Source: Gammaproteobacteria bacterium (lineage in GTDB: Bacteria; Pseudomonadota; Gammaproteobacteria; GCA-001735895). Taken from it: 64,000 nucleotides of DNA. Under the pieces are notes generated by a model. The model was not told where the DNA came from. It ran no database searches and saw only the letters and a list, made by a program, of their open reading frames with translations. Made by a program: the position numbers and the translations under genes. Below, one piece after another: positions 23,775 through 39,194 of the stretch (within the stretch, counting starts at the first letter, position 1; every line of letters begins with the position of its first letter). The DNA lies in contig JAAEMR010000164.1 of assembly GCA_024225395.1 (NCBI GenBank), forward strand, positions 1 to 64,000. The letters run 5' to 3'.

Positions 23775-26039
23775 TTAGAACCTGTAAACATAACCCAAAA
23801 ATACATCATACTGAGTCTGATCATTTAATTCAGGTAAATCAAAATTTGAATATTCAATGCCCAAACTACCTTCAAAACTTATTTTTTTATTGGGTTTATA
23901 AGTCACCTTCAAACTGGGTTTTAAAATATATTGATCGACTTCAGAGGTTTTACTTTTACGATAATCCAGACGTAACCGCGGATCATATCGTAAGCCTTTA
24001 GAGCCTGCTAAACGTGAACGCGCTCTGAGAGAAAGAATCTCCGATGATGAGGTATCAGATAATCTAACCCCGAGAGTTGTGTAATCATCTTCAAATAAAA
24101 GCCCTCTTACACTGTAGTCTGTTGAAAAATTAATATCACTGGTTGATGGGGCGGCTGCAACACCTCCAGACTCCACACTCGATTCTACCGAAGACAGCAA
24201 CAAGCTGAGATAAAACTGCCGATCATCATCTATCTGATAATTTGAGCCGACGAAAAGGTTCTGGCTTTTAGTGGTTCTATCTTCTGCAAGCTGATAAATT
24301 TCCTGATCTGACAACAATTCCTGCAATTCCTCCATGGATTCTACCTGCTGCCCCTGCAAAGCATTTATGGTTGTTAACAAAGGAGAGTTTCGATAATCAT
24401 AAGTCATATTGAAAACAAGCTTATCCGAATAACGATAATTTGTTATTGCAGTAATATTGTTTAAATCACTGTAAAAAATATCATAGTCAATTATCCCGTA
24501 TAAAAACCCTTTATCATTACGATACTGAAATTCAGTACCCAGAGCCTGCCGATCAGTCAGACCGGATAGTTGCTGCTGAACCACGTAAACATCCATTTCA
24601 ATTTTTTCGTAGGGTTTAAAGTGTATGTTACTGCCTACAAACTGACGCGCTGAATCAAGCCCGTCATAAGAAGACTGGACCGGAAAACCGGTGAATACGC
24701 TGTAGTTAAAATCATCATCAGATAAACCTTTATAGACAATTCCATCAAAACGACCTAACACCCCTTTTGCGGTTCTCGACTGTCTTCCACCGATCAACTG
24801 ATAGTTGGACTCGATATTGGTGTAATTAATCATGGCACGGCTTAAACGGGTTTCCGATTCATTATCAATAAAATCATTCACCAGCCCGGCATCAAATCGC
24901 ATCACCAGTACACTTTTATTTGTTTTTCTACGGGCATACATATTAACATCCGTCACGAGAGATGAATTCACCTGTTCACTATCCAGAGTTTCCCTATCAA
25001 CCACATCATCCCGGTAATACTGAGAAAGTGAACCGTATATTTTCCAGTTCTCATCTAATTTTTTACGTTTGCTTTTAGTCATTTGATCTTTTGGGTTTAA
25101 CCTCATGGTTTTTAACCCGGTTAATCTGATTTTAATCTTTGATGCCAGTTTACTTTCTGGGTATAAGTTTAAAAATTGACTGTACATTGCAACAGCCTGG
25201 GCAAACTTTCTCTGCCGTTCGCGCGCAATACCAACGAACTCCATTGCTTTTTGCTTTTGTTCAACTGAACCAATTTCAATTATTTTATTACTAACAGTGA
25301 CGACTCTCGCATAGTTTCGATCCAGAAACAGCTGGCGAGCCTGTTCCAGTAATTTTTCTGCAAACGCTATCTGGGGGGGCATCGCTGTTTCTTGTTTGAC
25401 CTTCTTTTTAATGGCTTTGGGAGCTGGCACTGGAGTTAATACAGGAACCAGTTTGGGGGTTACCCGGGGAACAACCTTAGGAGCTACAGGAAGTTGCAAC
25501 CTGGAAGTTTTTGCAGGGATTATTGCTGATATTACTTTTGGTCTAATAACTGGAATAACTTTCGCTTTAGCAACAGGTACAATTGCTGGAAGACTTTTCA
25601 CCGGTACTTTTGGTTTAAATTCCGGTAATATTTTTTTTTCAGCAAGTATCCTTGTTAGTGCCTGCTTCTCAACTTTTCGTCTTATATTTACCCAGGCACC
25701 AGGAAAATATTTTTTCACTTCGGATAAATGCTTTTTAGCCAGTTTCAAGCTCGCAAAATTTCCCGATACTAAACGATAATATACAACATCATTTACACTT
25801 ACTTTATTGATATACAAAATATCATTATCCAGAACAGAAATATTCTTAATTTCTTCCAGATTAACCGGTTTAGTGAATGAGAGAACATTTACCGCGTAGG
25901 ATTTAATGTTATCAGATTCAACAGGTCTGTTTACAAATGACTCTACATTTAGGAATTTACTTGTTGCCGCAAATAAATTGGAGGACACCAGTACTAAAGC
26001 ATAAATAAATATTCTTAATATCATTATTTTTATCATCAT
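23775..26039 (-). CDS. Outer-membrane SPOR/TPR/beta-barrel protein
   Basis: I use the ATG at 26039 (an upstream ATG at 26075 would bury the signal peptide). About 754 residues: signal peptide ending in NLFAA; a SPOR-like domain (about residues 40-105, with YYRLVSGNFASLKLAKKHLSE); a Pro/Val/Lys-rich linker (roughly 150-225); TPR-like helices (about 230-320, AVAMYSQFLNLYPES); then about 400 residues of alternating strands ending in YVYRF-stop, the C-terminal Phe of an outer-membrane barrel. It is the last gene of the minus-strand cytochrome cluster, so it may be the porin of an electron conduit. SPOR at the N-terminus is unusual for such porins. Confidence 0.75.
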   Translation of the reverse strand: MMIKIMILRIFIYALVLVSSNLFAATSKFLNVESFVNRPVESDNIKSYAVNVLSFTKPVNLEEIKNISVLDNDILYINKVSVNDVVYYRLVSGNFASLKLAKKHLSEVKKYFPGAWVNIRRKVEKQALTRILAEKKILPEFKPKVPVKSLPAIVPVAKAKVIPVIRPKVISAIIPAKTSRLQLPVAPKVVPRVTPKLVPVLTPVPAPKAIKKKVKQETAMPPQIAFAEKLLEQARQLFLDRNYARVVTVSNKIIEIGSVEQKQKAMEFVGIARERQRKFAQAVAMYSQFLNLYPESKLASKIKIRLTGLKTMRLNPKDQMTKSKRKKLDENWKIYGSLSQYYRDDVVDRETLDSEQVNSSLVTDVNMYARRKTNKSVLVMRFDAGLVNDFIDNESETRLSRAMINYTNIESNYQLIGGRQSRTAKGVLGRFDGIVYKGLSDDDFNYSVFTGFPVQSSYDGLDSARQFVGSNIHFKPYEKIEMDVYVVQQQLSGLTDRQALGTEFQYRNDKGFLYGIIDYDIFYSDLNNITAITNYRYSDKLVFNMTYDYRNSPLLTTINALQGQQVESMEELQELLSDQEIYQLAEDRTTKSQNLFVGSNYQIDDDRQFYLSLLLSSVESSVESGGVAAAPSTSDINFSTDYSVRGLLFEDDYTTLGVRLSDTSSSEILSLRARSRLAGSKGLRYDPRLRLDYRKSKTSEVDQYILKPSLKVTYKPNKKISFEGSLGIEYSNFDLPELNDQTQYDVFLGYVYRF

Positions 26040-26108
26040 ATGCCTGTAAACAATACAAACAATTACTCTCTGCAACTCATAAAATGAGCAGCAAAGAGTA
26101 AAAATTCA

Positions 26109-29100
26109 CTAGTCATCCCACTCCCTGTCAGTCACCCGATGAAATGAACTTTTCTCATGACAGGCACCGCTACAATCCCGGTTCAAACTTACAGACTCTG
26201 TACCGCCACTCGAAGATTCATGTTTTCTCTCAACATAATCATCAGCATGGCAAGCGGCACAATCCGGCTGGTAAGCTGAAAAATCCCAGGTCACTATTTC
26301 ACTATTAGCACCATGGCAGTCTGTACAGCCAAGTGCCTGTCGGTGATCACCCGGGTAATTTATTGATTGATGACTAAAAGTCAAGCTAGTCCAGTTCAGG
26401 GTTGAATGGCAATAATCACATTCACGTGCCGAGGTAAAGTGCCCGGAAGGTGTACCCGTAGAAATTGTCCCGTTATGACAACTTGAACATGCCGACGTCG
26501 CACCATCATGATCAAAATTCCAGTTCATCGTGGTATGGCATGTTTCACATTCAGCGATAGTAAATACATGATCTCCCCCCTTACCGGTAGCAATAACACC
26601 GTTATGACAACTGGAACAGCTTCCAGTCACCGCATCATGATCAACCGTTGTAGCAGGCACCCAGTCCAATGAACTATGGCACAATTCACACTCATTGTTC
26701 GACAGGATATGCTGAGCACCTTTACCCTCAACGGAGACACCATCATGACAAGTTGAGCAGCCTGAAACAATACCATCATGACTGAAGGTTGCAGACGTCC
26801 AGTTGAGCGTGGAATGACAGACATCGCATTCAGCAGTAGTGACAAAGTGCTGACCATGTTTTCCATCGGCTATCACACCATTATGACAACCGGAGCAACT
26901 GCCAATTACCTGATTATGATCTACGCCTGTTGCCGGCACCCAACTTAATGGGCTATGGCACAGTTCACATTCATTCGTGGATAGAATATGTTGTGCATTT
27001 TTACCTTCTGCACCAATACCATCATGACAACTGGAACACCCGGTGACAACACCATCATGACTAAAGGTGGCTGACGTCCAGTTCTGAGTAGTATGGCAAT
27101 CATCACATTCAGCAATAGTGGAGAAATGCTGAGCATGCTTTCCTTCGGCAATCACACCGTTATGACAGCTTGAACAACTGCCACTAACAGCATCATGATC
27201 AACCGTGGTCACTGGTTTCCAGCCAATAGTGGAATGACAAAACTCACAACTGGTCGTGGTATCAATATGCAATACATGCCGACCTTCGGCTGTAACACCA
27301 TTATGACAACTTGAACAGGTTCCAATCACACCATCATGATCAACCCTGGTTGCAGGTGCCCAGCCATAAGGTGCATGGCATAATTCACAGTCATTTAAGG
27401 TCACCAGATGCTGTGCACTTTTACCCTCTGCGGTAACACCATCATGACAGCTGATACACCTCTCGGTGACTGCATCATGATTGAAAGAGGCAGAATTCCA
27501 GTTGACCGTACTATGGCAGCTATCACATTCACTGGTCGTTGCCAGGTGCAAAGCATTTTTTCCAATAGCAGTCACACCATTATGACAACTGGAACACAGC
27601 CCAATTACTGCATCATGATCTATCTGTATGGCCGGCAACCAGCCCACCGTTCCATGGCATAATTCACAATCATTATTTGACAGGATATGTTGAGCATCTT
27701 TACCCGCTGCTGTTACCCCGTCATGACAACTGGAACAACTACCAGTCACAGCGTTATGGTCAACACGAGTAGCGGGAGCCCAGCTAAGAGGACTATGGCA
27801 CAATTCACAATCATTTGAAGTCGTCATATGCTGCGCATTTTTACCCGCTGAAACACTACCATTATGACAACTGGAACAACCAGTAGTCACACCATCATGA
27901 TCAAATGTGGCTGAAGACCAGTCCACAGTGCTATGACAGACATCACATTCATTATTTGTAACCAGGTGCAAAGCATCTTTACCGGTTGCAATCACATTAT
28001 TATGGCAGCTTGAACAACTTCCACTAACAGCATCATGATCAACCCGGGTCGCCGGGGTCCAGCTAACTGAACCATGGCAGGATTCACAATTACCCGCCGA
28101 ATTAATATGTTGGAGATTTTTGCCCTCGGCTATCACTCCATCATGACAACTTGAACAACTGCCTATGACCGCAGCGTGGTCTACTTTGGTTGCAGGAGCC
28201 CAACCAAACGGTGCATGACACAACTGACAATCATCCGAGGTAGAAAGGTGCAATGAACTTTTACCTTCAGCTGTTCCACCATCATGACAACTTACACAGG
28301 TTTCTGTAATATTATCGTGATTAAAAGTAGCAGAGTTCCAGTCCAGCGTACTATGACAACTATCACATTCACTGGTCGTATTCACGTGTAACAAATGTTT
28401 CCCGGTAGCTGTAACACCATCATGACAGCTTGAACAGGTTCCCATAACTGCACTATGGTCTACCTGTGTTGCAGGACTCCATGATTGAGAGCTATGGCAT
28501 AACTCACAGTCATTATTAGATGCCAGGTGTTGAGCATTTTTACCGGCAGTAATCACCCCATCATGACAACTGGAGCAGCCCGTCGTCACTCCATCATGGT
28601 CAAATGATGCCAATGACCAGTCAACTGTACTATGGCAGATATTACATTCATCGACTGTCTGCATATGCGAAGCATGTTTACCCGTTGAAATCACCCCGTT
28701 ATGGCAACTCGAACAACTTCCTGTCACTGCATTGTGATCAACTTTAGTAGCAGGAGTCCAGGACTGGGAGGTGTGGCATAACTCACATTCATTTGTGGTA
28801 TCAATGTGTTTTAAATTTTTTCCTCTGCCTGTATCTGAATTATGACAATTGGAACATCCCGAATTAATGCCTTCATGACTAAAAGATGCCGAGGCCCAGT
28901 TCTGAGTAGTATGGCAATCATCACAACCATCCGTTGTGGGGAAATGTTGAGCATTTTTACCTTCAGCAATTACCCCATTATGACAACTCTCACAAGTCCC
29001 GGTAACAGCATCATGATCCATACGGGCAGCAGGAGCCCATGAAAACACGTTATGACAGGTCTCACAATTATTCAACGAGGTGATATGTCGCAAATTTTTA

Positions 29101-29672
29101 CCTCTTGCTTTGGAATTATTGTGGCAACTCTCGCAGCTTTCAGTCACTCCTGTATGATCAAAAACAGCATCCTGCCAGGTAACCGTACGATGACAGTCAT
29201 CACAGTTTTCACTGCTTTCAATATGTTCGATATTTTTACCTTTTGCTATGGCACTATTATGACAACTCTGGCAGCTGCCCTTGACGGCAAAATGATCAAC
29301 TTTAGGTACAGATGTCCATCCACCCTGCTGGTGACAAAATGCACATTCTTCGGTTGTTTGAATATGTGCGGGAGATGCAGCACTGGCCTGAATTCTTCCC
29401 GTAGTTGAGTGACAGCCATAACATTGAGTTGGCGTACCACGGAAAACACCCTGCACATGACAGGATTCACAGTTTACACGGGCATGTACAAAATCCAGAG
29501 GAAAACTGGTTTCATCATGATTAAAGCTACTTTCAGCAGCTTCTGCAGCACCAAATATAGATAAATTAAAAACCATCAAAAAAAGTAGCAAGAAAACCCT
29601 GAATGAAAAGTCAGACTTTCTTGTATCTAAAAATAACGAACTTATCGAATACATTCTGTAACTCCTGTTCAT
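26109..29672 (-). CDS. Giant multiheme c-type cytochrome (47 CxxCH + 1 CxxxCH)
   Basis: A 1187-residue exported protein. Signal peptide: hydrophobic core LLLFLMVFNLSIFGAAEAA ending near residue 46. By direct count there are 47 CxxCH heme-attachment motifs, plus one CSGACH (CxxxCH) near the end. They are spaced 23-24 residues apart through most of the protein. Each unit carries one extra His, alternately in a GKxAQH-type and a VDH/FDH-type position, which would supply the distal ligand, so bis-His low-spin hemes are likely. The protein is expected to be a long chain of hemes, periplasmic or extracellular. It lies six bases downstream of the 21-heme cytochrome gene and 34 ahead of the barrel-protein ATG. 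Confidence 0.93.
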   Translation of the reverse strand: MNRSYRMYSISSLFLDTRKSDFSFRVFLLLFLMVFNLSIFGAAEAAESSFNHDETSFPLDFVHARVNCESCHVQGVFRGTPTQCYGCHSTTGRIQASAASPAHIQTTEECAFCHQQGGWTSVPKVDHFAVKGSCQSCHNSAIAKGKNIEHIESSENCDDCHRTVTWQDAVFDHTGVTESCESCHNNSKARGKNLRHITSLNNCETCHNVFSWAPAARMDHDAVTGTCESCHNGVIAEGKNAQHFPTTDGCDDCHTTQNWASASFSHEGINSGCSNCHNSDTGRGKNLKHIDTTNECELCHTSQSWTPATKVDHNAVTGSCSSCHNGVISTGKHASHMQTVDECNICHSTVDWSLASFDHDGVTTGCSSCHDGVITAGKNAQHLASNNDCELCHSSQSWSPATQVDHSAVMGTCSSCHDGVTATGKHLLHVNTTSECDSCHSTLDWNSATFNHDNITETCVSCHDGGTAEGKSSLHLSTSDDCQLCHAPFGWAPATKVDHAAVIGSCSSCHDGVIAEGKNLQHINSAGNCESCHGSVSWTPATRVDHDAVSGSCSSCHNNVIATGKDALHLVTNNECDVCHSTVDWSSATFDHDGVTTGCSSCHNGSVSAGKNAQHMTTSNDCELCHSPLSWAPATRVDHNAVTGSCSSCHDGVTAAGKDAQHILSNNDCELCHGTVGWLPAIQIDHDAVIGLCSSCHNGVTAIGKNALHLATTSECDSCHSTVNWNSASFNHDAVTERCISCHDGVTAEGKSAQHLVTLNDCELCHAPYGWAPATRVDHDGVIGTCSSCHNGVTAEGRHVLHIDTTTSCEFCHSTIGWKPVTTVDHDAVSGSCSSCHNGVIAEGKHAQHFSTIAECDDCHTTQNWTSATFSHDGVVTGCSSCHDGIGAEGKNAQHILSTNECELCHSPLSWVPATGVDHNQVIGSCSGCHNGVIADGKHGQHFVTTAECDVCHSTLNWTSATFSHDGIVSGCSTCHDGVSVEGKGAQHILSNNECELCHSSLDWVPATTVDHDAVTGSCSSCHNGVIATGKGGDHVFTIAECETCHTTMNWNFDHDGATSACSSCHNGTISTGTPSGHFTSARECDYCHSTLNWTSLTFSHQSINYPGDHRQALGCTDCHGANSEIVTWDFSAYQPDCAACHADDYVERKHESSSGGTESVSLNRDCSGACHEKSSFHRVTDREWDD
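26400..29350 (-). repeat. Coding tandem repeat array of the giant cytochrome
   Basis: Half-units of 23-24 codons (about 70 bases) alternate: type A (CSSCHNGVxAxGKxAQH) and type B. Type B comes in two flavours, CELCHxxxxWxPATxVDHxAVxGS and CDxCHSTxxWxSATFxHDGVxTG. A-B1-A-B2 gives a higher-order unit of about 93 residues (279 bases) with four hemes, repeated with some slips where B1 follows B1 (for example motifs 19 and 21, 25 and 27, 31 and 33). This points to growth by tandem duplication. Confidence 0.85.
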
Positions 29673-29678
29673 TGGTAG

Positions 29679-31274
29679 TTAACGTCCAAAAGATCTCATT
29701 AAACGGATATCGATTAATTTAAAGTCATCCTGTGTGTGACAGTTATCGCACTCTGGCCCAAAATTGCCATCATGAATATCATCACCTCTGTGACAATCTA
29801 TACACAGGGTATTTTTCTTTCTATTTTCATCAAAAGGTTCAAAATGACAAAGGTGACAATGTAATTCAGTATGAACTCCTTCTATTTTAAAATCGGTTTT
29901 ATCATGATCAAACTGCCAGATTAACCAGTCATTTGAGTTATGGCATTGCTGACACTCCTTTCCAAAAGCCTGTTCATGAACATCATCAAACTGATGGCAA
30001 TCTACGCAGGCTGATTTTGCATCTTTAAAAGCAGATGAAAGATGGCAGGATTCACAACCAATAACCGCGTGTTGACCAATCAGGGGAAAGTCTGTCAGCT
30101 CATGGTCATAGCGAACATCTTCCAACCACCAGGAAGAATCATTATGACAGCTATCACAAAGTTTCCCTTGCTGCCCTTTATGTACATCATTGTGTTTATG
30201 ACAGCTATAACAGGCTTTATCGGTTTTTTCACCTTTAATATCTGACTGGTGACAAGCCTGACAACTGGCTTTTTTATGAGCACCCTTTAATGCAAATTCC
30301 GTTTTTGTATCATGATTAAAGCTGGACTCAGACCAACTCTTTTGATTATGACAATCCTGACATTTCTCTCCACTCTTACCTTTATGCACGTCATCAAGCT
30401 TATGGCAGCTATAACAGTTCCTGAGCGCATGGCCAGTAGATTTCCACTGAGACTTTTTGCGTATTTTTTTTGTGTGGCAGGTATGACAGCTTACCGAGCT
30501 ATGAATATCTTTTAATTTATACCTGGTGTCTCTATCGTGTTTAAAGGTGGGTTTATTCCATTTATCCTCGGTATGACAATCCTGACACTTGTTATCAAAG
30601 CGGTTTTTATGTACATCTTTTATTGCATGACAGGAGACACATTGGGTTGGTGTATCTTTATAGCTATTTTCGACATGACATAAATCACAACTTACCCGTT
30701 CATGACTGAGTTTTAATTTAAATTTAGTTTTATCATGATCAAACTGTTCGCTACTCCAGGCTTTGGGGTTATGACAGCTGGCACATTTTTCACCCAGTTT
30801 ATTTTCGTGGATATCATTATCCTTATGGCAATCAATACAGGCAGATGGTGCTTGTCGATACTTTTTATCCTGCTTATGACATCCAGTACATTCAGTCTGT
30901 TTATGTTTCCCCAGTAATTCATAATCAGTCTGCTGATGGTTAAAGCGATTTGTATCCAGCCATACAATCTTAGCATCACGCCCTTTGTGATCACTATGAC
31001 AAACCCTGCAATCTGAAGTAGCAGCTTTATCATTCTTGCTATGAAATCCTTGCTCTTGCTGAATATCCTGTTTTACTTTTTCATGACAATCCAGACACAA
31101 TTCTTTCTGAGTTATTTCTCTACCCCGCTTGTGGCACTGTTTACAATCTGGTTCAAACTTAACATGCCCCTTAATAACATCCCCGGGCATGAATAATTTT
31201 TCAATATCAAGAGCAAATGTTTCACCACTTACCACCAGTGATATAAACAAAATCAGCAAGTCGATAATTCTCAT
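29679..31274 (-). CDS. 21-heme periplasmic c-type cytochrome
   Basis: A 531-residue exported protein: signal peptide residues 1-21, then 21 CxxCH motifs by direct count. Triplets recur about every 63 residues in the pattern CxxCHxxDDVHKxxxGxxCxxCHxxxxWxxxxFxHDxxTxFxLxGxHxxxxCxxCH, with His in DVH, FxHD and GxH able to act as distal ligands. The layout resembles cytochrome c3/NapC-like 'doubled CXXCH' proteins. Unlike its neighbour, it is Lys-rich. Its start overlaps the stop of the membrane-protein gene by one base, so the two are translationally coupled. A role carrying electrons across the periplasm is likely. Confidence 0.93.
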   Translation of the reverse strand: MRIIDLLILFISLVVSGETFALDIEKLFMPGDVIKGHVKFEPDCKQCHKRGREITQKELCLDCHEKVKQDIQQEQGFHSKNDKAATSDCRVCHSDHKGRDAKIVWLDTNRFNHQQTDYELLGKHKQTECTGCHKQDKKYRQAPSACIDCHKDNDIHENKLGEKCASCHNPKAWSSEQFDHDKTKFKLKLSHERVSCDLCHVENSYKDTPTQCVSCHAIKDVHKNRFDNKCQDCHTEDKWNKPTFKHDRDTRYKLKDIHSSVSCHTCHTKKIRKKSQWKSTGHALRNCYSCHKLDDVHKGKSGEKCQDCHNQKSWSESSFNHDTKTEFALKGAHKKASCQACHQSDIKGEKTDKACYSCHKHNDVHKGQQGKLCDSCHNDSSWWLEDVRYDHELTDFPLIGQHAVIGCESCHLSSAFKDAKSACVDCHQFDDVHEQAFGKECQQCHNSNDWLIWQFDHDKTDFKIEGVHTELHCHLCHFEPFDENRKKNTLCIDCHRGDDIHDGNFGPECDNCHTQDDFKLIDIRLMRSFGR

Positions 31275-32062
31275 CAGTAAAAATGCACCACTACAACGTG
31301 AGTAAAACCGGAAATAACGAGCATAATAAAAAGTGGTAAATGCAATATATGCCAGTAGGAAAAAAGGATCTCATTAATGCCCAATTTACATATAGATTTT
31401 AGTTTTAGCAGTCTTCCCACAAGTTTTTTTGAATCATCAAATTTTTTTAATAATTTTCTGGTTCTTCTGCGTAACTTATTGAGTTTCCAGTTCATTGACA
31501 TAAAGAACCACAAGGATCTGTTCATACCGGTATGCCGATTAACCAGTTTCTGTTCTAACAAACTTAACTCATCCGTAATTTCAGGGTGTATTTCGGTAAG
31601 TGAAGCCACCATCTGCTGCCAGTCTTCATTTTGATGATAAAGTTCTTCAAATTGAATTTTTTCACCATACAATCCATGATGAATGCGTCTATACAGATAT
31701 CGCCCTATCAAACCGCTACTCGCCACAATTAACATGCTGAAAAAAGCTACACTACCGTTTAAGGAACCCAGTCGATAACCGGAATGTAATATAATTAAAA
31801 CAGGTCCGGCAATGCCTAAAAACATATGAAAACGAAACCAGAACTTGATTGAACCAGCATATTTCCAGCGTGGTTTTCTTTTGCGGACAGGATAAACAAG
31901 CAGTAACAGCATCATTAAACCACCCAGAATACCAAGCCAATAACCTATGCCTGATTCAGCAACAAGGTATCGCTGATCAGCTACCACCCAGCCAGCATAG
32001 ATGATCGCCATAATGGCTCCATACCAAAGTAACGTCAGAGTATTCAGGGCGAGTTTCAACAA
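31274..32062 (-). CDS. Inner-membrane b-type-cytochrome-like protein
   Basis: A 262-residue protein with five hydrophobic segments: two near the N-terminus (about 7-28 and 40-60), two after KFWFRFHMF (about 78-96 and 104-122) and one at the C-terminus. Between 125 and 225 lies a charged, mostly helical cytoplasmic-type region. His residues at the membrane edges (FRFHMFLG, ILHSGYRLG, YWHILHLP, FTHVVVVHFY) could coordinate one or two b hemes, as in ferric-reductase-like or cytochrome b561-like proteins. I do not recognise a named family. First gene of the minus-strand cytochrome transcript, it may pass electrons from the quinone pool or cytoplasm to the 21-heme protein. Confidence 0.65.
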   Translation of the reverse strand: MLKLALNTLTLLWYGAIMAIIYAGWVVADQRYLVAESGIGYWLGILGGLMMLLLLVYPVRKRKPRWKYAGSIKFWFRFHMFLGIAGPVLIILHSGYRLGSLNGSVAFFSMLIVASSGLIGRYLYRRIHHGLYGEKIQFEELYHQNEDWQQMVASLTEIHPEITDELSLLEQKLVNRHTGMNRSLWFFMSMNWKLNKLRRRTRKLLKKFDDSKKLVGRLLKLKSICKLGINEILFSYWHILHLPLFIMLVISGFTHVVVVHFY

Positions 32063-32132
32063 AATAATCAGTCCAAATCAAAAAAAGTTAAATAGGTTAA
32101 TAAATATAGCAGAAAAATTTTAGCTTATTTTG

Positions 32133-32144
32133 GGAAAAGTTTCC
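32133..32144. promoter_or_regulatory. Palindrome in the divergent cytochrome-cluster promoter region
   Basis: GGAAA-AG-TTTCC lies in the 153-base gap between the divergent membrane-protein and ferredoxin/FAD genes, about 70 bases from each start. It is a perfect 5-base inverted repeat with two central bases and could be an operator shared by both halves of the cluster. No known regulator site is matched. Confidence 0.35.
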
Positions 32145-32215
32145 TAAATAAGAGATATAATTACTTTTATTGATTTTACCACTACACTTATAGATAAAAT
32201 TCACGACTGATTAGA

Positions 32216-33520
32216 ATGGAAACATACCTCTATTTTTTACCCATTGTGCTTTTCCTGGCGGGTTACGTATACCTGTCCAGTCGGCAACAGAAATTAAGTG
32301 CATATACTCGCCAGAATGCTATTCAAACAGGGCTTTCTGAACCAGCATCTTTGCATCCGATCATCGACAGAAATAAATGTATTGGCTGCAAATCCTGTGT
32401 CTATGCCTGTCCTCAGCAACTCGGCCACAATGTGCTTGGAATTTTTCATGGAAAAGCAGAACTACTGGAACCGGCAAATTGTATTGGTCATGGTGCCTGT
32501 AAAAAGGCCTGTCCGGAAGGAGCTATCACCTTGGTCTTTGGAACAGAGAAACGAGGTGTCGATATACCTCAGGTCAATGACCATTTTGAAACCAATATTC
32601 AGGGAATATATATCGCTGGAGAACTGGGAGGCATGGGATTAATAAGAAATGCCATAGAACAGGGTAAAAGCGCTATCAAAGCTCTCTCAGACTCTTTACA
32701 GAAAAACAGTAGCAACCCCTATCAAGTGATTATCGTGGGTGCTGGTCCAGCAGGAATTGCTGCAACTTTGAGCTCCAAACAAAAAGGGCTTAATTACTTA
32801 ACACTCGATCAGGATTCACTAGGGGGAACCGTCTTTCAATATCCCAGAGGTAAAGTTGTCATGACTCAACCTGTTGACTTACCACTTGCCGGTAAAATGA
32901 ACTTCAGGGAAACCAGTAAAGAGAATCTTCTGGAATTTTGGCAGAGTGTTGAGAAAAAGACCGATATTAAAATTAACTACAAGGAAAGTGTTTCACAAAT
33001 TGAAACAACTGAATCCGGTTTTAAAGTTAAAACCAGTAAAGATGAATATCTCACCGACAAGGTTTTACTCACCATCGGGCGCAGAGGTACTCCAAGAAAA
33101 CTGGGCATCCCCGGAGAAGAATTGCCCAAAGTAGTCTATCGACTGATTGACCCTGAACAGTATATAAACCAGAAAGTCATGATTGTCGGAGGTGGTGACA
33201 GTGCTCTGGAAGCGGCCCTGGCCATCGCAGATGTAGAAGGTAGTGAAGTATCATTATCCTATCGAAGTGACAGTTTTTCTCGAGCAAAAGCCAAAAACAG
33301 GGATCGCATCGAAGAATATTCCTCGAAGGGAAAAATCAAGCTTTACCTGCCTTCTACACTCACTGAAGTTGACGATGAAAGTCACGTTTCACTGGATCAC
33401 AATGGTGAAAAGATAACTATCTCCAATGATGCAATAATCATCAATGCGGGTGGCATTCTACCCACCGGATTTCTCAAACAAATAGGTATCCAGGTTGATA
33501 CCAAGTACGGAACAGCTTAA
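32216..33520 (+). CDS. Membrane-anchored ferredoxin/FAD-NAD(P)H oxidoreductase
   Basis: A 434-residue protein: one N-terminal membrane helix (residues 3-22, then basic residues that favour a cytoplasmic body), a dicluster-ferredoxin domain, and a two-dinucleotide-fold flavoprotein of the thioredoxin-reductase/YpdA type (FAD loop IIVGAGPAGIAA, NAD(P)H loop IVGGGDSALEAA). The redox-active CxxC of true thioredoxin reductase is absent. The first iron-sulfur motif is CIGCKSCVYACP; the second is CIGHGACKKACP, with His in place of the second Cys. It should move electrons between NAD(P)H and iron-sulfur centres at the membrane. It is divergent from the cytochromes and overlaps the next gene by one base. 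Confidence 0.85.
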   Translation: METYLYFLPIVLFLAGYVYLSSRQQKLSAYTRQNAIQTGLSEPASLHPIIDRNKCIGCKSCVYACPQQLGHNVLGIFHGKAELLEPANCIGHGACKKACPEGAITLVFGTEKRGVDIPQVNDHFETNIQGIYIAGELGGMGLIRNAIEQGKSAIKALSDSLQKNSSNPYQVIIVGAGPAGIAATLSSKQKGLNYLTLDQDSLGGTVFQYPRGKVVMTQPVDLPLAGKMNFRETSKENLLEFWQSVEKKTDIKINYKESVSQIETTESGFKVKTSKDEYLTDKVLLTIGRRGTPRKLGIPGEELPKVVYRLIDPEQYINQKVMIVGGGDSALEAALAIADVEGSEVSLSYRSDSFSRAKAKNRDRIEEYSSKGKIKLYLPSTLTEVDDESHVSLDHNGEKITISNDAIIINAGGILPTGFLKQIGIQVDTKYGTA

Positions 33521-35514
33521 TGAAATTAGCATCATCTACCTTTATCCAAATTTTTCTCACTTTCTGCCTGATATCACCCTTAGTCGCTGTTGCTGACCTC
33601 AAGACATCTCTTAAAGCCATAGACAGAACAATACGACTACGTGAATACGATCAGGCAGTAGAGCTGTTACAACCTCTGCTAAAACAAAATATTGCCGAAG
33701 CTCAATATCGTATGGCCGGATTATATCGTTCTGGTTCTGGTGTACCAAAAGACATGAACAAGGCCTTGTCTGAATATCGCAAAGCCAGTTTAAGCGGTTT
33801 GGATAACGCTCAGTTTGCTCTAGCTTCACTGCTGGAAAAACAGGGTTCCAGTAACAGCACAATGGTAGAAATAAAAAAATGGTATCAGGCTGCAGCCGAT
33901 CAGGGTCATCGAAAAGCCAGAAAAAAACTGGCCGCTCTTGAGAAAAAGTTAGCCAGTTACAATGCTGCAGAGGTTAGCCATGAAACTATTTTTAGCGCTA
34001 TCCGAAACAATGATCTTGATCTGATAAAAGCCCTCATAGAGCAGAAAGTAAATCTGGATTTCAAAGATGCAAATCTTAGGACTCCATTGATGGTTGCATT
34101 ACTGGCAAAGCATCATGAAATGTCACAACTGCTAGTGACTCATTCCAGCCAGCCTGACTCAGTAGATATCAATAATAACCGGCCTATACACATGGCCAGC
34201 AGTAACAGTTATGCTGATATCGTATTAAATCTAATAAAAAAGCAGGTCGACATCAATGCTGCTGACGGGCTTGGGAATACGGCCCTTATTATTGCTACCC
34301 GTCATGATGACAAAGAAATTTTACAGCACTTACTCAACAATCATGTCGACCCTACTATAAAAAACAGGAAAAACCAGACGGCTCCTCAACTGGCTCAAAC
34401 GCTTAATTTAAAAAATGCCCGCACACTGTTCAATGAATTTAACATTGAATTGCCTGATAAAAATAAAGATTATGCTGAAGTTGATATAAAATCCTTCCGC
34501 GCCAGTATTTCCAAATCATCTTCTTTGTACAAGGACTGGCCTTTGATAAATATTGCCAGCCTGTTAGGCGAGTCAGCTATAGTTGCACAGTTACTCGATC
34601 AAGGTATCCCCATTAATGATACTGATTCAAATGGAAATAGCGCATTGCATCGAGCCGCCAGCAAAGGGCAGGTAAAAACACTGAAACTATTACTGTCACG
34701 CGGAATCAATATCAATGCAGTCAATCACCAACAACAGACTGCTTTATATGTTGCTGCTTCAACAGGACAATTAAAAGCCATTGATTACTTAATTAAAAAG
34801 GGAGCAGATACATCTCTTGTAGCTAATAACAAAACCAGCCCATTGTCTATTGCCATTTCAAATAAACAGGTTAAGGCAGCTGAGTTACTGGTTTCAGAAA
34901 AACTTAAGCAAACGGATATTCATCATGCATTATTAGTTGCTCTTTTGAACAACATGGAAACCCTCAGCGTTGAATTAATTAAACGTGATAAACTGTTGGT
35001 TTATTCCTATGCTAAAGATCGATCAGCTTTATGGCACAGTGCAAACCTGGGACTAAAAAAAGCTACAATCGAGTTACTCAACAGAAAAGGAATTGATATA
35101 GACCTGCCAGACAAGGATGGGTTTACAGCTCTTGCGAGAGCCATCATTAACGGCTTTTCAGACATCGCAGGACTATTAATTTCAAATGGGGCGAATATTA
35201 ATATCGTCACTGATGAAAACAACAGCATGCTAATGCTGGCTGTACTTTCCAATCAATCCGCTACATTAAAAAACATACTCAAACTGGATAAAAATTTAAA
35301 TGCAAAAAATAATTCAGGCAACACAGCGCTCATGCTGGCTGCAAGCAGTGGTAACAAAGAGTTTGTTGAGCTTTTAATCAAATCAGGTGCCGATATTCAA
35401 ACCAGAAACCATGATGATTTAAATGCTTACCAGATAGCCATAAATGCCAGTCATCCATCCATAGCAGAATTAATTAAAGAAAATAGCGGCCAGTTGTTTA
35501 AACTATTTAATTAA
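33520..35514 (+). CDS. Exported Sel1/ankyrin-repeat protein
   Basis: A 664-residue protein with a signal peptide (about 1-25, LTFCLISPLVAVAD), two to three Sel1-like repeats (about 35-150, AEAQYRMAGLYRSGSGVPKD), then about a dozen ankyrin repeats to the C-terminus (for example DSNGNSALHRAASKGQVKTLKLLLSRGIN). These are scaffolding and protein-binding domains with no catalytic residues. Start and the oxidoreductase stop share a base (TAATG), so co-translation is likely, which ties it to the cytochrome cluster. It may help assemble or hold periplasmic components, but this is inference. Confidence 0.88.
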   Translation: MKLASSTFIQIFLTFCLISPLVAVADLKTSLKAIDRTIRLREYDQAVELLQPLLKQNIAEAQYRMAGLYRSGSGVPKDMNKALSEYRKASLSGLDNAQFALASLLEKQGSSNSTMVEIKKWYQAAADQGHRKARKKLAALEKKLASYNAAEVSHETIFSAIRNNDLDLIKALIEQKVNLDFKDANLRTPLMVALLAKHHEMSQLLVTHSSQPDSVDINNNRPIHMASSNSYADIVLNLIKKQVDINAADGLGNTALIIATRHDDKEILQHLLNNHVDPTIKNRKNQTAPQLAQTLNLKNARTLFNEFNIELPDKNKDYAEVDIKSFRASISKSSSLYKDWPLINIASLLGESAIVAQLLDQGIPINDTDSNGNSALHRAASKGQVKTLKLLLSRGININAVNHQQQTALYVAASTGQLKAIDYLIKKGADTSLVANNKTSPLSIAISNKQVKAAELLVSEKLKQTDIHHALLVALLNNMETLSVELIKRDKLLVYSYAKDRSALWHSANLGLKKATIELLNRKGIDIDLPDKDGFTALARAIINGFSDIAGLLISNGANINIVTDENNSMLMLAVLSNQSATLKNILKLDKNLNAKNNSGNTALMLAASSGNKEFVELLIKSGADIQTRNHDDLNAYQIAINASHPSIAELIKENSGQLFKLFN

Positions 35515-37267: not shown

Positions 37268-37352
37268 AGTCCAATTCACGACTTAAATTTAGAGCTGATC
37301 TATACCCAGATTAACGTTAGAATATTATCCTGTTAAAAAAATATTGAGAAAT

Positions 37353-38624
37353 ATGTCATCTGATACTTTTAGCGGTTCTACACGCATCCTTCGCCAACTG
37401 TATTTTTTAAGAAACATCACTATCACTTTTGTACTGGTGATGACGATGATGGCTCTGTTTGGCCTCAAGATTAACCTTCCAGTGCTGCCCTTAAGCATCA
37501 TTATTTTGATCATGGCCGTTACCAACCTGATCACTCGACTGTTTATCGACTCGGGTAAACCCATTACCAACAAAATAATATTTATTCAGCTGTTACTGGA
37601 AATACTTTCCTTTTCGCTGATTCTATATTTCGCCGGTGGAGCCACTAACCCTTTTACCTTTTTCTACCTGATTCCGCTCGCCATATCCGCTACCGTTATT
37701 CCTGGTTTATCGACCTGGTTATTAACTTCACTGACCGTCATTCTGTACAGTCTGCTGCTAAAATACTATGTCCCCTTAAGCTACAACATGATGGACCATC
37801 AAACCGCTATGGCGGGTGATGGACAGTTTTCACAACACGTATCAGGCATGTGGTTCGGGTTTCTGGTTAGCGCAATTTTAGTCACCTGGTTTATTACCTA
37901 CCTGTCGAAAGAATTAAAACAGCGTGAGCAGGACATCGCAGATGCAAAACAACGTGAAATGCGGGATCAGCAGATGGTGACACTCGGCACACTGGCTGCC
38001 GGTACGGCTCACGAACTGGGAACTCCACTAGCCAGCCTGGCAATCATTGCTGGAGAAATTACCGATGGATTTTCAAAAGAAGAAAATCCGGAACTGTTCG
38101 AAAATCAGGAAATATTACGCCACCAGATTCAACGCTGTAAAAAAATACTGTCTGTTCTATCTGACTCGACCGGAGAATCACGCGCTGATGAAGGTTACCT
38201 GATGCCAGTGACTGAGTTTTTTGAGCTAGTACTAAGCCACTGGCACGATCAACGCCCGGACACCCTTTACAAAACGGGGCTGGATTCGTTACAGACACCC
38301 TTGCAACTTCTCTATGATAAAACCATTTCTCAGGCACTTATCAACCTGTTAAATAATTCTGCTGATGCTTCCAGTGACCCCATAGAAATTCATGCCACTA
38401 TCGACCAACAACAATTGTTGATTGAGATTAGAGACAGCGGCGAAGGCTTGAGTGAAGAGCAACTCGCCATGGCTGGAGAAGTTTCATTTTCCAACAAACC
38501 GGATGGCATGGGTATAGGTCTGTTTTTAGCCATTACCACCATTCGCCGAAGTGGCGGTAGCATCGAATTTCAACACCGACAATCTGGCGGAACCAGCACC
38601 GTTGTCCGCTTAGCGTTGATATAA
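37353..38624 (+). CDS. regB: RegB/PrrB-type redox sensor histidine kinase
   Basis: Using the ATG at 37353 (an in-frame TTG lies nine bases upstream), a 423-residue kinase with six membrane helices in the first 190 residues. The quinone-sensing heptad GGxxNPF reads GGATNPF at residues 95-101. The phosphoacceptor is H220 in AAGTAHELGTPLASL. The redox-active Cys of RegB has a counterpart at C262 (QRCKKILSVL). The ATPase domain has NLLNNSADAS, DSGEGL and GMGIGLFLA. RegB responds to the redox state of the quinone pool. It is followed 30 bases later by its response regulator. Confidence 0.93.
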   Translation: MSSDTFSGSTRILRQLYFLRNITITFVLVMTMMALFGLKINLPVLPLSIIILIMAVTNLITRLFIDSGKPITNKIIFIQLLLEILSFSLILYFAGGATNPFTFFYLIPLAISATVIPGLSTWLLTSLTVILYSLLLKYYVPLSYNMMDHQTAMAGDGQFSQHVSGMWFGFLVSAILVTWFITYLSKELKQREQDIADAKQREMRDQQMVTLGTLAAGTAHELGTPLASLAIIAGEITDGFSKEENPELFENQEILRHQIQRCKKILSVLSDSTGESRADEGYLMPVTEFFELVLSHWHDQRPDTLYKTGLDSLQTPLQLLYDKTISQALINLLNNSADASSDPIEIHATIDQQQLLIEIRDSGEGLSEEQLAMAGEVSFSNKPDGMGIGLFLAITTIRRSGGSIEFQHRQSGGTSTVVRLALI

Positions 38625-38654
38625 CCCCGGTAAGCACTGTAGAATCTTATTATT

Positions 38655-39194
38655 ATGAGTGAAGAAAATCCCAAGTTATTACTGGTCGACGATGATGAAA
38701 TTTTCTGTAAAGTGTTATCCAGAGCCCTGCAGAAAAGGGAATACAATGTTGAGGTTGCTTATAATCAGAAAGATGCTTTAGAACAAGCACAACAACTCCA
38801 CCCGGAATTCGCCATCGTTGATTTGCGCATAGGCAATGATTCTGGCCTAAATGTTATTAAATCACTGGCATCATCCTATCCCGACATCCGCATTGTTGTT
38901 CTCACCGGATTTGCCAGCATCAGTACCGCAGTAGAGTCAATTAAACTGGGCGCAATTCACTATCTGACAAAACCGGCTGAAATTGACGATATCTTAACCG
39001 CGTTTTATCACGATGAAGGCAATGCCGATATAAACCTGCAAACTCAACCCATGTCCGCCAAACGCATGGAATGGGAACATTTACAAAAGGTTTTACACGA
39101 TCACAACGGTAATATTTCAGCCGCTGCACGGGCAATGGGCATGCATCGCAGAACGCTGCAACGAAAACTCAGCAAAAAACCAGTCAAGGTTTAA
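38655..39194 (+). CDS. regA: RegA/PrrA/ActR-type response regulator
   Basis: A 179-residue regulator: receiver domain with acidic pair VDDDE and phosphoacceptor D56 (AIVDLRIGNDSG), conserved Thr in VLTGFAS and Lys in YLTKPAE, then a Fis-like helix-turn-helix (GNISAAARAMGMHRRTLQRKLSKK) that is nearly invariant in RegA homologues. It controls respiration, cytochrome and carbon or nitrogen fixation genes in relatives, so the cytochrome cluster just upstream is a natural candidate target here. That is inference; no binding has been shown. Confidence 0.94.
   Translation: MSEENPKLLLVDDDEIFCKVLSRALQKREYNVEVAYNQKDALEQAQQLHPEFAIVDLRIGNDSGLNVIKSLASSYPDIRIVVLTGFASISTAVESIKLGAIHYLTKPAEIDDILTAFYHDEGNADINLQTQPMSAKRMEWEHLQKVLHDHNGNISAAARAMGMHRRTLQRKLSKKPVKV

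Follow-up and report, generated by a model that had tools for sequence, protein, structure and literature searches.

In a stretch of 64,000 nt from contig JAAEMR010000164.1 of a Gammaproteobacteria bacterium (the window, whose positions are used as coordinates throughout), we analysed a six-gene locus at 23775-35514. Four of the genes encode a conduit of the PCC3 porin-cytochrome type, and the locus probably combines this conduit with a cytoplasmic electron input fed by NAD(P)H, namely a membrane-anchored flavoprotein with iron-sulfur (Fe-S) motifs. An earlier note on this DNA had proposed a transmembrane electron conduit in which the six genes follow a possible electron path. This proposal is well supported, and all six open reading frames were found where the note had placed them. 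The features are the following:

23775-26075, minus strand: PCC3 porin (P0001), with signal peptide, putative SPOR domain and TPR, and predicted C-terminal barrel
26109-29672, minus strand: multihaem cytochrome c, predicted extracellular, 47 CxxCH (P0002)
29679-31274, minus strand: periplasmic multihaem cytochrome c, 21 CxxCH (P0003)
31274-32062, minus strand: PCC3 inner-membrane protein (IMP, P0004), predicted di-haem b carrier with five membrane helices and a large, predicted cytoplasmic loop
32063-32215, no strand: divergent intergenic region of 153 bp between two operons
32216-33520, plus strand: membrane-anchored flavoprotein (P0005), with a transmembrane (TM) helix, two [4Fe-4S] motifs and a permuted YpdA/TrxR-like FAD/NAD(P)H domain
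33520-35514, plus strand: exported Sel1/ankyrin-repeat protein (P0006), a frequent accessory

Read in its own direction, the minus-strand group runs from the IMP through the 21-haem and the 47-haem cytochromes to the barrel protein, and the plus-strand group consists of the flavoprotein followed by the Sel1/ankyrin protein. The one-base overlaps described before are real: the IMP and 21-haem cytochrome genes overlap in a TGATG at 31274, and the flavoprotein and Sel1/ankyrin genes in a TAATG at 33520. Rfam and tRNA scans of the window gave no matches, and the promoter and terminator counts were near the shuffled expectation.

According to the passages of He 2017 considered here (PMC5566968), PCC3 is defined by a porin, an extracellular multihaem cytochrome (MHC) with a median of 34 haems, a periplasmic MHC with a median of 21 and an IMP of about 300 aa, whose five TM helices include the motifs WX3HX13H (helices 3 and 5) and SGXXG (helix 4). 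P0004 is 262 aa long and carries WFRFH-X13-H at 75, SGLIG at 116 and WHILH-X13-H at 237. The claimed membrane-edge His pairs, H79/H93 and H241/H255, are present and invariant in 52 homologs, and so are W75, W237 and the SG..G residues. Because P0004 has both WX3HX13H motifs and the SGXXG motif, and the gene content also matches, the locus is by its sequence features a PCC3; every testable published defining feature is found in its four conduit genes, and the comparison with PCC3 in the earlier note was right. P0004 has positive loops at 57-73 (+7) and 121-231 (+9) and therefore, following the positive-inside rule, its large loop is predicted to be cytoplasmic. In this orientation, H79/H241 would face the cytoplasm and H93/H255 the periplasm.

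The flavoprotein P0005 had been described as an anchored ferredoxin/FAD-NAD(P)H protein, and we did find one N-terminal membrane helix, two 4Fe-4S motifs (C55xxCxxCxxxC65 and C89xxH92xxC95xxxC99) and a FAD/NAD(P) domain. All 47 sequences compared share C55, C61, C65, C89, H92, C95 and C99. In the second motif, CxxHxxCxxxC, the invariant His replaces the second Cys. All seven cysteines of the protein sit in the two motifs; a thioredoxin or disulfide reductase role was rejected, since there are no spare cysteines and no redox-active CxxC of TrxR. Regarding the flavin domain, residues 170-434 align with YpdA 5-272, and a second piece, 122-153, matches YpdA 278-310 against the linear order and is weak when taken alone. 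Swapping the two pieces lifts the Pfam scores and covers both profiles to the end (Pyr_redox_2, 1-291 of 291; Pyr_redox_3, 1-305 of 305), and therefore the FAD/NAD(P)H fold is circularly permuted. The AlphaFold model has a mean predicted local distance difference test (pLDDT) score of 86, and among solved structures it is closest to YpdA (by Foldseek, E 2.7e-21; with VIA, Z 23.0 and 3.8 A over 264 residues, 7a7b) and to the TrxR-type ferredoxin-NADP reductases, whose FAD midpoints were reported at about -0.24 to -0.29 V (PMC9137726, PMC11121358). Our literature searches gave no paper on this flavoprotein or on permuted TrxR folds. The same permuted flavin unit also occurs in a 780-residue protein of another genome (L180:5911-8250, G179), followed by membrane and polyferredoxin segments; this gene has no PCC3 and lies amid glycosyltransferase and methyltransferase genes.

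According to the earlier note, genes scattered in relatives would refute its proposal, and this refutation failed. We searched four genome samples and found the flavoprotein together with the IMP in 13 of 13, 41 of 41, 6 of 6 and 63 of 64 IMP-bearing genomes. Of the 41 genomes of the window's family, 13 have the IMP, and exactly these have the flavoprotein (p = 6e-11). At strong scores, 41 of the 369 genomes of the class have the IMP and 43 the flavoprotein, with 41 shared (p = 2e-52), and in the phylum sample of 398 genomes both are found in the same 6 (p = 2e-13), with one further weak relative of the flavoprotein. The fourth sample was the family of G750, a Gallionellaceae-like genome whose flavoprotein shares 93% identity with the one in Gallionellaceae UBA12482; here, among 158 genomes, the IMP was found in 64, the flavoprotein in 67 and both in 63 (p = 5e-38). 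All these p values come from Fisher tests on genome counts, which ignore shared ancestry. As for the two flavoprotein-only genomes of the class, one contig ends inside the porin/MHC cluster and the other is a frameshifted contig of 3.5 kb. The two genes are also close to each other: the distance is at most 1.5 kb in 33 of 41 pairs of the class, with opposite strands in 36 of the 37 pairs on the same contig, and at most 2 kb in 46 of the 52 pairs tested in the G750 family. A scan of named genomes gave at least 553 relatives of the flavoprotein, in loci that include Thiodiazotropha, Chromatiales, Hyphomicrobium and Gallionellaceae. The IMP is present in 67 of the 80 loci kept, and those without it are mostly truncated contigs. 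Thus, the co-occurrence of the flavoprotein with PCC3 is nearly absolute, and usually it is the next divergent gene.

We also read the genomic context of 25 distant IMP homologs. A cytochrome of 6-12 haems adjoins the IMP in all 25 loci. Thirteen of these IMPs adjoin a protein of about 800 residues with a FAD/NAD(P)H domain in canonical order and Fe-S motifs, and nine a FAD/NAD/2Fe-2S protein of FNR type. By analogy, one cytochrome-b family would meet three kinds of NAD(P)H-type input. Tentatively, PCC3 and its relatives may belong to a broad and so far undescribed superfamily of transmembrane electron lines linked to NAD(P)H, in which one cytochrome-b family is combined with at least three flavo-Fe-S input units, one of them circularly permuted; the PCC3 line, extending beyond the cell, would then connect the NAD(P)H pool with minerals or electrodes directly, bypassing quinones and possibly in both directions.

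These results suggest that PCC3 draws electrons from NAD(P)H and not from membrane quinones. The gene content, the signal-like N-termini of the cytochromes, the conserved ligands and the co-occurrence were observed; the use of NAD(P)H, the cluster content, each electron step and the direction of the following path are inferred. NAD(P)H would reduce the FAD of the anchored flavoprotein. Via the two [4Fe-4S] clusters of this protein, electrons would then reach the IMP, first its b haem on the side of the cytoplasm (H79/H241) and next the one on the side of the periplasm (H93/H255). The latter haem would deliver them to the 21-haem cytochrome bridging the periplasm, from which the external 47-haem cytochrome would receive them by way of the SPOR-tethered barrel. 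A role in assembling or docking the wire is probable for the periplasmic Sel1/ankyrin protein. Since outward transfer would be favoured both by the membrane potential and by the potential of NAD(P)H, electrons most likely leave the cell on balance, so that an extracellular acceptor takes up surplus reductant.

Not all observations speak for an input from NAD(P)H through the flavoprotein. The structure model of P0004 (pLDDT 88) gave no Foldseek match at E 0.001. With VIA-align it matched the NADPH oxidase SpNOX at Z 9.4 (2.7 A over 114 residues), which is under the trusted level for helical bundles, since a VIA Z below 13 is not conclusive for such a protein. Its other VIA matches were superoxide oxidase, cytochrome b561 and NOX5, amid unrelated helical bundles of similar Z; the likeness of the model to a haem bundle of the NADPH oxidase type is suggestive only. 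Nothing relevant matched when the P0004 sequence was compared with solved structures, and PF01794 (NOX/ferric reductase) had no Pfam match in P0004 and was not among the listed matches of the 52 homologs. Furthermore, three of the 25 distant IMPs have no flavo-Fe-S neighbour, the genome G928 has an IMP without a detected flavoprotein, the two genes are unlinked in G906, and in several genomes a single flavoprotein is accompanied by two or three IMPs. Because of G928, the unlinked pairs and the surplus IMPs, the flavoprotein may act in trans or may not serve every IMP copy. The genomic context is a stronger support for the NAD(P)H input than the fold matches of the IMP.

Regarding the other explanations, the IMP motifs led He 2017 to infer a cytochrome b that reacts with quinones (PMC5566968), and cytochrome b561 and complex III are both among the weak fold matches of P0004. 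The IMP could then exchange electrons with the quinone pool, the flavoprotein being a regulator, a repair enzyme or a side enzyme. However, this is unlikely, since with a quinol donor one would expect neither a flavoprotein in essentially every IMP-bearing genome nor an NAD(P)H flavo-Fe-S protein, of two further architectures, next to 22 of the 25 distant IMPs. We also regard as improbable an inward conduit, in which extracellular Fe(II), Fe(0), FeS or sulfur would reduce NAD(P)+ through PCC3 and so provide reductant for CO2 fixation. Such a flow would be uphill against the membrane potential and usually against the donor potential, and in Sideroxydans lithotrophicus ES-1 both PCC3 clusters are down on Fe(II) compared with thiosulfate (PMC8788666), which speaks against their taking part in Fe(II) oxidation in this strain; the second cluster of ES-1 had similar protein levels in all samples (PMC12016527). 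Nevertheless, PCC3 was first described in iron oxidisers (PMC5566968), and the IMP gene of PCC3 copy 2 rises in Sideroxydans CL21 when iron is oxidisable (PMC12442390). The host genome itself, with two RuBisCO-like genes, dsrA and no MtrB match, looks like that of a sulfur-oxidising autotroph, which would also suit an inward flow.

The earlier note had seen the flavoprotein, the SPOR domain and the ankyrin partner as making a distinct set, and these parts do lie outside the published description of PCC3 in the passages considered. Actually, a distinct six-gene system unrelated to PCC3 is extremely improbable, as all the testable PCC3 features are present and both the motifs and the co-occurrence refute it. 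As a rule, PCC3 comes with the flavoprotein and the SPOR domain, and in most lineages with the ankyrin protein as well; the flavoprotein is also found in three Gallionellaceae loci. The published definition is incomplete, and the near-constant cytoplasmic flavo-Fe-S component is new: the examined passages on PCC3, which list the porin, two cytochromes and the IMP, do not mention the flavoprotein.

An outward PCC3 conduit with NAD(P)H input would have consequences beyond this locus. PCC3 has been suspected of serving iron oxidation, and the quinone pool was presumed to lie at its inner end; a flavo-Fe-S partner changes the predicted energetics and direction. Such a near-obligatory partner would explain why PCC3 expression need not track Fe(II) oxidation. 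Moreover, the flavoprotein is a single gene to delete or assay, and a better genomic marker for PCC3 than the length-variable cytochromes.

Regarding the cytochromes, the claimed counts of 47 and 21 CxxCH were both confirmed, and shuffling the residues of P0002 and P0003 gave a mean below 1 and a maximum of 4. Both proteins have 25.3 residues per haem and signal-like N-termini, and P0002 is built from a four-haem repeat of 93 residues. The IMP-adjacent cytochrome has a steady haem number, 21 in 44 of 61 complete homologous genes and mostly 18 or 24 in the remainder, whereas between 8 and 67 haems are found in the second cytochrome, depending on the locus. Within the window's family it has 9 haems in three loci (L093, L095 and L096) against 47 in P0002, and the 67-haem extracellular form belongs to the Thiodiazotropha locus.

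For the porin P0001, an ATG at about 26039 is a more probable start codon than the TTG at 26075. Regarding the SPOR/TPR/barrel architecture claimed for it, SPOR and TPR score under the Pfam cut-offs in P0001 itself, but of 24 homologous porins 16 gave a SPOR match (best E 2e-9), and the barrel is supported by the aromatic C-terminus. P0001 ends in Phe, and the last residue is aromatic in 25 of 31 full-length homologs, which is a signature of outer-membrane barrels. P0001 is homologous to porins adjoining other PCC3 IMPs, and the barrel that belongs to PCC3 is thus predicted here.

The Sel1/ankyrin protein P0006, which had been claimed as exported, begins with a signal-like N-terminus that is followed by Sel1 and ankyrin repeats. 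Its gene directly follows the flavoprotein gene in 59 of 76 testable loci, although not in the Gallionellaceae loci, and 55 of 60 such proteins have a hydrophobic N-terminus. Therefore, the ankyrin partner of PCC3 is common, not universal; our literature searches gave no paper on it. Downstream lie a gene for a choice-of-anchor H family protein (NF038116, 35985-36755), likewise present in the closest relative L091, and at 37344-39194 a RegB/PrrB-like sensor kinase and a RegA/PrrA-like regulator, which belong by family to the redox regulators but score below curated cut-offs. This regulatory pair, 1.8 kb downstream, was rejected as a part of the system and treated as neighbours, since among the 80 loci it stands beside PCC3 only in L091.

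Compared with known systems, the residues per haem are in the range of 22-39 given for PCC3 by He 2017. The PCC3 published there consists of four genes with a proposed quinone link, to which the present locus adds an ankyrin protein and a flavo-Fe-S protein of permuted fold. YpdA (Bdr) and the TrxR-type ferredoxin-NADP reductases share the FAD/NAD(P)H fold with P0005 at about 26% identity. Unlike them, P0005 is permuted, with the C-terminal FAD segment now in front, is fused to a dicluster ferredoxin and a membrane helix, and lacks cysteines for a redox disulfide. NADPH oxidases and ferric reductases, such as SpNOX, have two b haems stacked across the membrane and a cytoplasmic FAD/NAD(P)H unit feeding them, and the same is predicted here. 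However, the flavin unit is here a separate protein of TrxR/YpdA fold with [4Fe-4S] motifs, not an FNR-type domain, and electrons would pass to a multihaem wire instead of O2 or iron.

Clusters of an FAD/NAD(P)H-Fe-S protein, an IMP-like cytochrome b and a decahaem cytochrome (L179, L182, L183, L187, L189, L190, L193-L195, L198-L200 and L204) are widespread in Proteobacteria. They resemble the present locus in their homologous IMP, homologous FAD/NAD(P)H domain and adjacent multihaem cytochrome, and differ in the canonical domain order, the decahaem cytochrome and the cyclic nucleotide monophosphate (cNMP)-binding domains. The latter are known from the one cluster scanned, L187, whose FAD-Fe-S protein has two of them and whose decahaem cytochrome has an FHA domain. 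A conduit of the MtrAB type was rejected for our locus, since PF11854 (MtrB/PioB) has no match anywhere in the genome and P0001 no Pfam match to MtrB. Nevertheless, MtrCAB, MtoAB and PioAB also place a porin and multihaem cytochromes across the outer membrane, although the haem number here is far larger.

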